DNA from: Dermatophagoides farinae
Taxonomy: Eukaryota > Arthropoda > Arachnida > Sarcoptiformes > Pyroglyphidae
Assembly (NCBI RefSeq): GCF_024713945.1
Contig: NC_134677.1
Coordinates: 1,243,001 to 1,307,000 of the forward strand
DNA length: 64,000 bases
Direction: 5' to 3'
Shown one piece after another: positions 10,101-20,365 of this stretch. The position numbers and the translations under genes were made by a program. The notes beneath the pieces were generated by a model, which did no database searches, was not told the origin of the DNA, and saw only the letters and a program-made list of their open reading frames with translations. Each line of letters begins with the position of its first letter. Position 1 is the first letter of the stretch.

Positions 10101-12647
10101 GTTGAATCTTTTTTTTTTGTTTTGTTTATCAAATTAAATTTGTAATATTCATTCATTGAATAATAATAATTTTTCTTTCAATTTTAAATAGGTCTATCTT
10201 ATCTACATCATAGTGATTTAAAATGTCATGGAAATTTAAAATCAACAAATTGTCTGGTTACATGTAGATTTGTTGTGAAATTGAATGATTTTGGTCTATT
10301 TTCATTCCGTAAAGAAGAACCTGATGCACAGATTGCATTGTATAATAAATTATGGCGACCACCGGAAACTTTAAGAAATCCAGATGTTATTGGTCCAGAA
10401 GGAGATTTATATTCATTCGCTGTTATTGTGCACGAGATTGCCATTCGAAAGGGACCGTTTGCTATAAAACTTATCAATGATGAAATATTATTTGAAGAAT
10501 TGCAGAAAATTGTTGATGAAGTAAAAGCTGGTCCAACATCTGATGGCCGTATAAGACGTCCAGATACGACAATCACTGATTTACATGATGATACAATTGA
10601 ATTAATGAATCTCTGTTGGAGTGAAGATCCAAAAACACGGCCAACTATTGATGCATTACGAATTATGGTGAAAAATGCTCAAAAATTTCGACCACCACCC
10701 GAAAATCTTGTTGAAAATATGGTCAAAATGATGGAAGTATATCAGAATCAACTGGAAGATCTTGTCCATAAACGAACACAACAATTGGATGAAGAGAAAC
10801 GAAAAACAGAAACATTATTATATCAAATGTTACCGGAAAGTGTTGCAAGACAATTAATAACTGGAGAAACTGTTATACCGGAAACATACGAAACTGTAAC
10901 AATATTTTTCTCCGATATTGTTGGTTTCACTAAACTATCGGCTACAAGCACTCCAATGGAAATTGTCACATTTCTTAATGATCTTTATTGTCTATTCGAT
11001 TCGATTGTTTCTCATTATAATGTCTACAAAGTTGAGACTATTGGTGATGCATATATGGTCGTTTCAGGATTACCAATTCGTTATGAACATCATTATACGG
11101 AAATTGCATCAATGGCATTGGAAATATTGGAAGCAATCAAAACATTTCAAATTCGTCATCGTCAAAATCAATATTTACAGCTTCGTATTGGTATACATAC
11201 AGGTATGTAATGTACCTTTTTTTTGATTAAATTTAGCAATAATTAATCTTGGCCAAACTAAATCCAATTATTAATTGAAAAAAATAAAATTGTTTTCAAT
11301 ATAGGTCCAGTTGTGGCTGGTGTAGTCGGTACTAAGATGCCTCGCTATTGTCTATTTGGTGATACGGTCAATACAGCATCACGAATGGAAAGCAATGGTT
11401 TGTTTATATCAAATTCAATCGGAATTATATCTCCCAATTGATTGATTATCATTTGAAATTGAATCGTTTTTATTTTCATTTCATTTATCATAGGCGAAGC
11501 TCTTAAGATTCATATGAGTCCAGAATGTCGTAATCTTCTTGAACCAACTAAACAATTCATTATTCGTGAACGTGGATTTGTTACATTGAAAGGCAAAGGA
11601 GAAGTGAAAACATATTGGCTTTGTGGACATGTGGATGGACCACAACTTCGTTTTGATCGTAGTAAATTCACCTATGTTGATTCACCATGGATACAGAAGG
11701 ATCATAAATCACCGATTACGACAATTTTCCAGGATATTAGTTCAACAAGAAAAGGTTCACTTGTCAATCATAATGAACCGAATTTGGCTAAATTTTATAA
11801 AAAAGCTATTGGTGGTGGTGGATTGAATACGTCGTTTTCACGTCTAAAAAGTGCACACAGTAGTTCTTGTAATACATTTCGACCAAAAGTGGAAAATCAT
11901 CTTAGTCCAAAAAGTATAAAAAAGAATTGGCCATTCCGTATATTTAATCATAAATCACGTTCAAGTTCAACTAATCAACCGGAAATTGAACAACAACAAC
12001 AAATGAACAATATTCCAATGGTAGATACATCAAAACCGAAAAGCCCAAAATTTATAATCAAATCAACTAGTTATAATATAATTGAAGCTGTAAACACCAA
12101 GATTATTCATGATCATCATCATCATTATTCTCCTCATAATCAACCACATGTTAATCCTATTTATTCAGATAATCATCATCATCATCATAATGATGATGAT
12201 CCAATCGAACAAAATGATAATACAACAAGTGATCAAGAAGATTATCATTTACATAATGAACATTGTGAAAATGATGATGATGAAATTGAAAATGAACCTT
12301 TATTACGAAAATATCGTAAATTAAATAACAATAAAAATACGGGAAGAAAAAGTAGTCTACAAGAAGAAGATGATGAAAATGATGATTGTGATAATTCATC
12401 CGATAATGGTTTGAATATGATGATGATGATGATGACGAATTCTGAACAAAAAAGGCCAAATGGAATAGTCATTTCAATTGATAATGTAGATAATAATGAT
12501 GATGAAGTAATGAATCAAGTTGTTAATTCACCATATAGACAACAACAACAACAGCAGCAGCAGCAACAACAACAACAACAACAACAAGAACAAATATTAA
12601 ATGCTTATCATCGTAATCAAAATCATCAAATCGATATTACATATTGA
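7105..12647 (+). CDS. Receptor-type guanylate cyclase, Gyc76C-like
   Basis: Five exons with GT...AG introns fit in frame: 7105-8325, 8451-9441, 10192-11202, 11305-11397, 11494-12647, giving about 1489 residues. The extracellular part (about residues 60-400) matches the Gyc76C ligand-binding domain, with [48 protein letters not shown] and RTRIYVF. One membrane segment lies near residues 545-568. The kinase-homology region carries [11 protein letters not shown] instead of HRDLKxxN, so it is a pseudokinase. The cyclase domain (about 970-1160) has [22 protein letters not shown] and [16 protein letters not shown]. It would make cGMP at the plasma membrane. The long tail holds poly-His, acidic and poly-Gln (12540-12590) tracts. 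The start is uncertain: 7105 is the first in-frame ATG, but the frame is open back to 6904 and a good signal peptide needs codons before 7105, so an upstream exon is likely. The 750-bp intron 9442-10191 holds only repeats. Confidence 0.92.
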
Positions 12648-12849
12648 ATATGACAATAACGAAAATCCAATAGATTCAGATATACCGATTTCTAGTCAAA
12701 TTGCAATGTCATTTTTTTATCTCTATCCCCCTGGTTCCTTCTCCACTAAAAAAATATCACCACATATATTAAGGTGACCAAAATTGTCTTTCATCAATAA
12801 TAATCATCATCATCATTGACACAGAGAAAGAAAACTATTCAAAAAGGTA

Positions 12850-12872
12850 AATAATAAAGTTTGTTTATTATT
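12850..12872. terminator. Back-to-back polyadenylation signals in a perfect inverted repeat
   Basis: AATAATAAA and TTTATTATT form perfect 9-bp inverted arms around a 5-bp spacer. The plus strand supplies AATAAA (12853-12858) about 205 bp after the guanylate cyclase stop. The minus strand supplies AATAAA (12869-12864) about 86 bp after the GTF2H4 stop. This single element probably ends both convergent transcripts. Confidence 0.6.
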
Positions 12873-12954
12873 CATAAATTCACATAACATTTACATAGTG
12901 GAGAGATGGTGTTTTTTTTCTAACATATACACAATATACAATTTATTTTATATA

Positions 12955-14895
12955 TTAATCTCTTTCTTTTTTATGTTTTTTCCAGAATCGTTTCACTTCT
13001 TCATGACCTGTAGGTGTGACCACCAATAATCGACGTGATGAATTCTCGAATAATATGACGCCCAGATTCTATTTTTTTTTTTGCAAAAAAAAAACAAGAA
13101 AATTGAAAGTGAAAAATTCTTTGTTTTTTGAAATTGATATCATTTTGTAAATATTTTTTTTGAGTGTGTGTGTGTGTGTAAATATAAACAAAAAAAATCT
13201 AAATTATGAAAACAAATAATGTGTAAATTTTGATAACTTACAAATGCATATTTTCTTAATGCTTCATAATCGGTTTGTGAATTGAATTGTGAATATAGGA
13301 CACCATCACAGTATGTTAGACGATTACGTTCTTGTTCCCAAAGAAATATCTGATCAATAATTGTACCCGGTATAACAGTGGATCGTTTTTCCGAATACAT
13401 ATGTGGATGTGCATGCATCGAAAGATAATGTGTAATCTGTTTAGCTGTAATACCATTCTTGAAAGCAGTACGAACAGAATCACGTGTTATGAGGCCAACC
13501 ATGAATTTTGGAAAACGATAATTCAATTCAATAAATAATGTCAGCAGGGCAATTTGTAATGGTGATTCTGGAAGAAAAACGTATGAAAATGGTTAATCTT
13601 TTTTATTCACAAAAATCAATCAGTATTGCTGTTCACCTGTGTATGCATAAACACGATAATTGGTTTCAACAACAATGAAACCTTGTCGTTTATTATACTG
13701 TTGTGTTAAAGCCATATTTGATAAATGAAAATTTCGACGAACACTTTCAAACAATCGAATCATTAATCGTGTTGGATAAAATCGGCCATCTTTACGCTAG
13801 ATTAAAAAAAAAAAATTTCTTTGAAAAAGATTGAAATGATGAGTAAAACAAACTTTTCGTTGATAAACAAGTCCCATTTCTCTTAAATGTTGTAGAAATG
13901 ATTGAATTGATTCGCTAAGACCATCGGTGGAATAACTCTGCAATTGAAATTGTTGACTTTAAATCAATATCACAAAAAAATAAAAACAATACTCACCTTT
14001 CCGTGTGTCAAAAAATTTAATTCGAATAAAAAACTAAGACATTCGATATAATTGAAACCAAAACTTTCAACAAGTTCAAGATATTTTCTGATGAAATACC
14101 ATATTTGTAATGAAATATCAATGAGAAGAAATTGAAAACCTGATGCAGTGATGACAATCTCGCCATTATCATCAGTTTCAATTAGACCGGCATTAAAGAT
14201 GACTTTTTTCGTAATCTCACCAATATTATCATTATAATCTTTTAATTTAACACCAGCCATAAAATTGAGAATGGAATCCCATCGTTTGTTGATGGAATAA
14301 TTATCCAACGTTTCAATATCAGGACGATGTTTATCCACTCCAAGAGAATTGAATATTGAACGTTGTTTGCCACTAAAAATAATCAAATTGTGAATACAGT
14401 AATGTTGAAAAGAAATTAAAAGAAACTAACCCTCCAAGCCATGATGTTTGAAGACTTTTCTGAAAAGTTGTATTTAACAATCGACCTGGTAATCCAGATT
14501 GCATTGGTGTTGATTTCCATATCTGAAGTCTTGTGAGCACATCAGCAGCTTCATTGTAATCACTTGTTTGATGATATCGAAAAACAAAGTTATTTTAGCC
14601 ATTTTGAGATTGCTAAAATGGACGCATACCTTATAGATTTAACCCAAGATGAAACGACAGCTTGTGGAATTGGTTGTTCAATGAACACTAAACGAAGAAC
14701 AAAATTTTGAGCTAATGAAGGCAATTCACGAAAAACGGCTAAACATGCTGTCGGACATTCGTAAAGTTGATTCAATAGAATTGGATTGAATTTTTCCAGA
14801 TAACTCAATAGATCAATGTTCATTTCATCGAATTCTTGCGATGAATTTTGCTCACCACTTGTTGACGGTTTATTGATTGAACTAACATTTGTCAT
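12955..14895 (-). CDS. GTF2H4: TFIIH core subunit p52 (GTF2H4/Tfb2)
   Basis: Seven exons join in frame on the minus strand: 14895-14630, 14562-14431, 14372-13997, 13937-13854, 13796-13637, 13567-13242, 13068-12955. They give 485 residues, against about 460 in human p52. Strong family matches along the length are [105 protein letters not shown] and the C-terminal [19 protein letters not shown]. p52 anchors and stimulates the XPB ATPase in TFIIH, acting in nucleotide excision repair and transcription initiation. The N-terminal 20 residues are low-complexity. The gene converges on the guanylate cyclase with 307 bp between stop codons. Confidence 0.95.
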
Positions 14896-15157
14896 TTTTA
14901 ATTCTTTTTTATTTATCGATTATACTCGTTATTTTTTATTTATTATTATTGTCAACAAATGATAATCATAAAACTTGATGATGTTTCAGAAACACATTTT
15001 TTAAAAAAAATTCTCCGAAAAAAAATATGACAACTTGAGTCGTTCATAGACAATGTTTTTTTCCGAAGTGTTTGAAAATTATTATTTCATTCAATTCAAT
15101 TCAAATCATCAAATTATAAATATTTTTTTTTTTGAAAAAAAATCAATTAATAATAAA

Positions 15158-20165: not shown

Positions 20166-20195
20166 TTGAATTGATATTTTGCTTGTTGTCATCTC

Positions 20196-20201
20196 AATAA
20201 A
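20196..20201 (+). terminator. Polyadenylation signal, carboxypeptidase copy B
   Basis: AATAAA lies 31 bp after the stop codon, at the same spacing as in copy A. Confidence 0.55.
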
Positions 20202-20264
20202 TTATTTTGTTTTGGATTTTAGTAAACAAAAATAACAAAAACATTGATTTTATCGATTGTTTAC

Positions 20265-20272
20265 TATCGATA
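20265..20272. promoter_or_regulatory. TATCGATA element before DDX54
   Basis: TATCGATA lies 94 bp upstream of the DDX54 ATG and 100 bp after the carboxypeptidase B stop. By analogy with the insect DRE it could drive this housekeeping gene. That analogy is inference. Confidence 0.4.
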
Positions 20273-20365
20273 GTGAGAACCACACACGTGTATAAATCAT
20301 TTTGGTAGCATGAATTCTGTTTACATTTTTTTTCCTCAAAAAAGTTAAAATTTTAAATTTTCAAA

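Follow-up and report, generated by a model that had tools for sequence, protein, structure and literature searches.

Tandem direct duplications with passenger loss are a known type of gene birth: two head-to-tail copies arise, one constrained gene is kept and the rest is deleted. The seam of a tandem direct duplication can also carry the end of a class II transposon, as in the reversed-ends Ac duplications of maize (PMC3744419). We describe a duplicated locus of the house dust mite Dermatophagoides farinae, located in a 64-kb stretch of contig NC_134677.1 (C1; 64,000 nucleotides, positions 1,243,001 to 1,307,000; hereafter the window, to which all coordinates refer unless a contig is named). 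The duplicated unit contains the Pfam domains guanylate cyclase, Tfb2 (GTF2H4), SIKE and Peptidase_S10, and its second copy retains only the S10 carboxypeptidase intact. The observation of a tandem duplication keeping one intact gene is confirmed, and the case is ordinary in kind. It departs from the general pattern in that the broken second SIKE gene (SIKE2) bears signs of past constraint and in that a transposon end lies at the seam. In the open-licence literature, as far as extracts of it go, neither this duplication nor any D. farinae piggyBac element was found described.

A collinear second copy with internal deletions

Comparison of the two halves of the locus by blastn reveals 17738-20279 to be a collinear, deleted copy of 11227-17703, adjacent to it and on the same strand, in a direct tandem arrangement. 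Four blocks with 93-97% identity connect the copies, besides which only three scattered matches of 32-40 bp occur. The main blocks were also aligned at base level (17937-20296).

11227..17703: copy 1 of the unit, complete, about 6.5 kb (blastn self-comparison)
17738..20279: copy 2 of the unit, with three internal deletions (blastn and base-level alignment of 17937-20296)
Block 1: 11227-11290 = 17738-17801, same strand, 96.9% identity (blastn)
Block 2: 11843-11975 = 17812-17945, same strand, 94.1% identity (blastn)
Block 3: 15263-15597 = 17945-18280, same strand, 95.2% identity (blastn)
Block 4: 15674-17703 = 18279-20279, same strand, 93.2% identity over about 2040 columns, E = 0 (blastn)

The original prediction had proposed such a collinear, heavily deleted copy, and the four same-strand blocks bear it out; setting the two halves against each other, the check it named, was run as blastn and finds the collinear similarity present. 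Its unit ends shift slightly, from 11226 to 11227 at the start and from 17701 and 20277 to 17703 and 20279 at the ends. Self-comparison of the window with the low-complexity filter on revealed no other duplication except one 38-bp match. A DNA search of the whole genome (62,435,336 bp, 22 contigs) gave no third copy of the unit among the matches listed for the best candidates. The sole other long match listed is a paralogous carboxypeptidase on contig C3, with 69% identity over 401 bp, and the remaining listed ones span 40-62 bp. Outside the unit, the open reading frame that the original prediction labelled DDX54 matches DEAD and Helicase_C in Pfam.

Copy 2 lacks 11291-11842 of copy 1 (10 bp stand in its place), the stretch 11976-15262 and, around 15598-15675, a net 78 bp. 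As had been predicted, it has thereby lost GTF2H4 and most of the cyclase piece, and both blastn and a genome-wide search with the missing segment agree on this. Apart from its own place, the segment 11291-15262 has matches only in the 134-bp exon piece of copy 2 and in stretches of 33-88 bp; no long second copy of it was found genome-wide. GTF2H4, a TFIIH subunit, is absent from copy 2. No long second copy of the right flank was found genome-wide either; the other matches are 30-88 bp, and nearly all of these short matches fall in one stretch common to many places.

13140..14919, minus strand: GTF2H4 (Tfb2) exons, copy 1 only (Pfam; not in copy 2)
17812..17945, plus strand: cyclase exon fragment, frameshifted by 1-bp indels (alignment)
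17802..17811: 10-bp insert at the joint of the 552-bp deletion, containing AAAGTGCA, which is repeated at 17817 (sequence reading)
17945..17945: joint of the 3.29-kb deletion (11976-15262 gone), 1-bp overlap (blastn and base-level alignment)
18279..18280: joint of the net 78-bp deletion within SIKE2, 2-bp overlap (blastn and base-level alignment)
17702..17703: 2-bp microhomology (AA) where the end of copy 1 joins a transposon remnant (read by eye)

All four joints show overlaps of 1-2 bp or, in one, a short templated-looking insert, as expected for end joining. The insert comprises an 8-bp repeat of adjoining sequence (17802, 17817), which we take to resemble the products of polymerase-theta repair.

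Copy 2 could be another haplotype or strain wrongly placed in tandem by the assembly. Passengers and carboxypeptidase are both constrained (see below), as alleles would be, and the long reads used for the assembly have a mean subread length of 7,442 bp (PMC11074847). We nevertheless regard such an artefact as very improbable: the copies diverge by 3-7%, depending on the stretch, and by 9-14% at fourfold degenerate sites (carboxypeptidase 14/154, SIKE 6/42), against a reported heterozygosity of 0.52% for the D. farinae assembly (PMC11074847). Furthermore, the other haplotype would be without GTF2H4, neither the flank nor the deleted segment has a second long copy in the genome, and the window contains 0 N.

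Constraint on the carboxypeptidase and SIKE pairs

The gene pairs retained in both copies are as follows, with CP1 and CP2 denoting the carboxypeptidases of copies 1 and 2.

16139..17595, plus strand: CP1, exons 16139-17340 and 17406-17595, 463 aa (translation, Pfam)
18716..20165, plus strand: CP2, exons 18716-19905 and 19976-20165, 459 aa, intact (translation, Pfam, structure match)
18505..18715: divergent SIKE/carboxypeptidase intergenic region, a putative shared promoter region, kept in copy 2 (alignment)
15158..15922, minus strand: SIKE of copy 1, 254 aa (Pfam SIKE, 4.6e-11)
17945..18505, minus strand: SIKE2 remnant, C-terminus lost, with 78-, 12- and 10-bp deletions and a 1-bp insertion relative to copy 1

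Both carboxypeptidases belong to peptidase family S10, matching PF00450 with exon 1 (3.0e-102 and 1.1e-101 in the two copies) and exon 2 (2.5e-10 and 2.9e-10). Each contains a GT-AG intron, longer by 5 bp in CP2, and an AATAAA signal (at 17626 and 20196, respectively). The catalytic triad was located by motif at Ser170, Asp389 and His443 in CP1 and at Ser170, Asp385 and His439 in CP2. No frameshift or stop interrupts the 459 codons of CP2. The two coding sequences differ at 61 of 1377 aligned sites and in 29 residues, and by two in-frame indels, one of 9 bp and one of 3 bp. The intergenic region shows differences at 14 of 211 sites and one 6-bp deletion.

Among solved structures, CP2 is closest to lysosomal protective protein (cathepsin A, family S10), which it matches over nearly its full length (best E 5.6e-100), and the triad is present in both copies. 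Unlike cathepsin A, CP1 and CP2 are without the cysteine of the GCSS motif and without a second cysteine further on. The cysteines are missing at CP1 residue 81 and in the stretch Cys313-Cys394, and CP2 is alike; the C3 paralogue has Cys93 and Cys367 there. We assume that the partner of the GCSS cysteine lies near CTSA residue 334 and that this disulfide is conserved. A conserved S10 disulfide thus seems to have been lost in this carboxypeptidase lineage. The CP2 product, as predicted from its sequence, is most likely a functional serine carboxypeptidase of cathepsin-A-like type with a lysosomal or digestive role.

The carboxypeptidase pair evolved under constraint. Maximum-likelihood (ML) codon analysis gave dN 0.029, dS 0.133 and a dN/dS ratio (w) of 0.219, with other methods between 0.19 and 0.28 (NG86 0.25, YN00 0.19, LWL85 0.28). 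Analysed on its own, the whole gene rejects w = 0.5 (p 0.003). By codon range, w is 0.21 for 1-195, 0.31 for 196-360 and 0.05 for 361-459 (codon ML), the last being the strongest part against w = 0.5 (p 0.001). With dS shared with the SIKE pair, w = 0.5 is rejected for the carboxypeptidases (2dlnL, twice the log-likelihood difference, 9.9; p 0.0016), and a fully neutral copy is rejected jointly with 2dlnL of 9.9 to 11.0. Small indels that are not a multiple of three number 0 in the aligned carboxypeptidase coding sequence versus 9 in 1127 bp elsewhere (P 0.0007, or 0.013 when the cyclase exon cluster is excluded). The original prediction suggested selection for a second carboxypeptidase copy; the dN/dS of 0.22, the rejection of a neutral copy and the lack of frameshifting small indels all support this.

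A similar signature is seen in the broken SIKE pair. The C-terminus of SIKE2 was cut off by the 3.29-kb deletion, and the pair, compared over 183 codons in the frame of copy 1, gives w 0.212 (range 0.19-0.21) and dS 0.116 by codon ML, to be set beside the dS of 0.133 of the carboxypeptidases, the Ks comparison that had been proposed. Changed codons comprise 12 synonymous and 11 others, including one stop in the polyglutamine tract. Had SIKE2 been neutral since birth, a pairwise w of at least 0.5 would be predicted. With dS shared with the carboxypeptidases, w = 0.5 is rejected for SIKE (2dlnL 8.4, p 0.004), also without the polyglutamine tract (7.7, p 0.006). Because neutrality from birth is rejected in this joint test, SIKE2 probably worked for much of its history before it was lost, judging from the sequence pair. 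The original prediction that linked passengers decayed therefore stands in so far as SIKE2 is now broken, and is an oversimplification in that SIKE2 did not decay from the start.

The equal, low dN/dS of an intact and a broken pair would also be accounted for if the copies had first diverged in two distinct lineages, through old haplotypes or introgression, and had been joined later by unequal exchange, with the constraint predating the duplication. This requires a lineage whose synonymous divergence is some 25-fold the reported heterozygosity, no direct evidence for it was found, and we consider it unlikely.

Several observations weigh against the reading of constrained divergence followed by late loss. 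With its dS unshared, the SIKE pair gives p 0.063 against w = 0.5 and so does not exclude neutrality from birth at the 5% level. A duplicate born already collapsed, through one replication-based template-switching event that left out GTF2H4 and part of SIKE, would be compatible with this value, and template switching also leaves microhomologies of 1-2 bp. It is highly unlikely given the joint test, and also because at one of the joints a transposon end abuts its target site, which is unexpected from template switching. Within the carboxypeptidase, codons 1-195 and 196-360 do not reject w = 0.5 on their own (p 0.12 and 0.23). Noncoding divergence in the unit (19/384 over intergenic region, intron and 3' flank) lies below that at fourfold sites, which may reflect uneven rates or some constrained flanks. 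A run of 184 aligned sites is identical between 16095-16278 and 18672-18855, covering the carboxypeptidase 5' flank and signal peptide region (P 0.014 at a uniform rate). It may be a region of constraint or a gene-conversion tract, and in the latter case it would blur dating. Finally, the C3 paralogue agrees with CP1 at 6 differing sites, with CP2 at 2 and with neither at 21, and CP2 may be the faster, more derived copy.

This last point would suit a CP2 that is neutral and survived by chance, merely not yet hit, and SIKE2 shows that a low pairwise dN/dS is compatible with present loss of function. Since the broken SIKE2 shows the same signature, the low w found for the carboxypeptidases bears on the past only, and alone it is no proof that CP2 works today. 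The case for present function is made instead by the uninterrupted frame, the preserved splice sites and poly(A) signal, and the lack of frameshifting indels. Chance survival appears rather unlikely, with 459 codons free of frameshift or stop, two small coding indels that both leave the frame unchanged, intact splice signals and w of about 0.05 in codons 361-459. Retention of CP2 under selection is preferred, and we infer that it was kept through dosage or mild divergence.

A second tandem pair of S10 carboxypeptidases is found at C8:3265904-3267850 and 3267842-3269787, 94.2% identical over 1962 columns, a value similar to that for the main carboxypeptidase block in the window (93.2%). Its members presumably resemble vitellogenic-carboxypeptidase-like proteins. 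No piggyBac end was found in the 40 bp either side of the edges of this pair.

A piggyBac-like element end at the seam

The sequence between the copies had been described as a unique 36-bp junction (17702-17737). This does not hold, as 34 bp of the junction belong to a dispersed element, whose terminal repeat they form.

17704..17737, plus strand: right terminal repeat, the final 34 bp, of a non-autonomous piggyBac-like element; differs from the commonest form at one position (genome search)
17738..17741: TTAA target site of copy 2, immediately following the element end (sequence reading)
11227..11230: corresponding TTAA without the element, cyclase intron of copy 1 (sequence reading)

The 34-bp pattern has 22 genome-wide matches with at most 3 mismatches, the junction itself counted, and the backward-read control has 0 matches in the genome. 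A second search with the TTAA included recovered 21 of these 22 places. TTAA follows the element end in 19 of the 21 loci read (window remnant counted) and lies on both sides of 14 elements of 754-851 bp and one of 180 bp. The element ends, CCCTAGAAAGG...CCTTTCTAGGG, are of piggyBac terminal type; full elements start with CCCTAGAAAGGTAACC, and the remnant is the reverse complement of the CCCTAGAAA... end. The string CCCTAGAAAG co-occurs with piggyBac and TTAA in the literature. The locus thus resembles piggyBac-like non-autonomous elements, of the kind of miniature inverted-repeat transposable elements (MITE-like), in that the remnant carries a terminal repeat of CCCTAGAAAG type and the family has TTAA target-site duplications, a length of about 850 bp and dispersed copies. 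It differs in that the remnant has lost its other end: only 34 bp are left, from which subfamily and age are not readable.

As the remnant ends at 17737 and the TTAA at 17738 is homologous to that at 11227, the left edge of copy 2 is identified as the element insertion site. The window otherwise has one TTAA per 141 bp. The clean TTAA at 11227 is consistent both with a site never inserted and with an excised element.

Other origins of the 34 bp were considered. Homology to the sequence left of 11227 was rejected (local score 10 versus a shuffle median of 10). An 8-bp match to the DDX54 flank (score 16; shuffle 95% and 99% levels of 15 and 18, taken from another comparison) was dropped because the genome-wide pattern explains the origin. 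Dating of the insertion by family divergence was abandoned, since other subfamilies share the terminal repeat and the 34 bp are not assignable; over their final 300 bp, closely related copies differ pairwise by a median of 0.9-3.5%.

Two piggyBac-type transposase frames occur at C2:4364159 and C5:3037117 (527 and 562 aa, identical over 1,423 bp). Both loci hold DDE_Tnp_1_7 frames without stops over the domain, and their identity suggests recent activity. No end of the 850-bp element type was found within 1.5 kb each side of either gene.

The element may have triggered the duplication, through a break within it, aberrant excision repair or alternative transposition, with copy 1 later restored scarlessly. 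Copy 2 begins exactly at the element TTAA, the matching position in copy 1 is a clean TTAA, and the footprint-free repair of piggyBac excision reported in PMC7351741 would fit. We hold this origin to be possible, with doubt. On the other (copy-1) side of the joint there is no TTAA and no second element end; none was found elsewhere in the window with at most 4 mismatches over 21 bp, and the nearest listed match to the element end on C1 is 2.6 Mb away. Furthermore, insertion into copy 2 followed by deletion yields the same structure. The comparison with reversed-ends transposition is alike in this respect: Ac junctions carry target-site duplications (PMC3744419), whereas here a single end with TTAA faces a side with none. 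Homologous recombination between resident element copies was set aside, as no second copy was found nearby. The two ends of the unit share no long homology; the present seam shares only 2 bp, although any longer homology would be hidden if the original breakpoint was deleted.

Proposed history and significance

We consider it likely that duplication, constrained divergence, element insertion and end-joining deletions, with CP2 kept, account for the locus. A direct tandem duplication of at least 11227-17703 took place long ago, at a pairwise synonymous divergence of about 0.13. As this is about 25 times the heterozygosity, the pair is old by comparison with standing variation, and one would expect it to be fixed if it is real. 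Judging from copy 1, the original duplicate would have held the cyclase 3' part and the whole of GTF2H4, SIKE and carboxypeptidase. The two SIKE copies and the two carboxypeptidases afterwards diverged under the constraint measured above. A non-autonomous piggyBac-like element, at a stage that would come next, entered the cyclase-intron TTAA of copy 2 or its ancestor, and a deletion with 2-bp microhomology would have removed all but its final 34 bp, which now separate the copies. Deletions of 552 bp, 3.29 kb and 78 bp, again by end joining, also occurred. The 3.29-kb event probably came late, going by the dN/dS values, taking GTF2H4-2 and the SIKE2 end together. CP2 retained its frame and intron, its divergent promoter region, its catalytic triad and its poly(A) signal.

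The favoured order is duplication, insertion in copy 2, then deletion of most of the element and the sequence left of it. An order with the element first and the breakpoint inside it, copy 1 having been restored by scarless excision or never having carried the element, also fits. Both need about an equal number of steps. The ambiguity in the relative timing of insertion and duplication likewise counts against the proposed history. We prefer the former order because ordinary insertion and end joining suffice for it and no TTAA or second end lies on the other side.

One further feature lies near the right end of the unit.

20265..20272: TATCGATA upstream of DDX54, with a counterpart at 17689 (string count)

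This string occurs 10 times in the window versus 2.7 expected from base composition, and the duplication ends 7 bp past one such site. We take it to be the string of the Drosophila DNA replication-related element (DRE) site. Elsewhere in the genome, at C4:4170433-4171937, exons of Der f 21 and neighbouring exons lie head to head on opposite strands about 0.8 kb apart; the neighbour is presumably Der f 5-like. A locus recovered with the Blo-t-5 family encodes a protein identical to allergen Der f 21 (entry 5yny) across the 112 residues that run from EDKW to its end.

The locus offers a compact record of duplicate pruning, with a mobile-element insertion site, three deletion joints, a broken gene and an intact one within 2.5 kb. 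Two corrections to the original prediction follow: a transposon end lies at the seam, and the loss of SIKE2 was most likely late, not immediate. A seam judged unique from a single window can turn out to be a dispersed transposon end, and a broken SIKE2 with the mark of past constraint warns that low pairwise dN/dS is no proof of present duplicate function. If the element did trigger the duplication, this would be a natural case of a piggyBac-superfamily cut-and-paste element seeding a gene duplication whose survivor was kept by selection. For house dust mites, the tandem pair described here adds to the C8 pair of similar divergence, and hints at repeated expansion of the S10 enzyme family.

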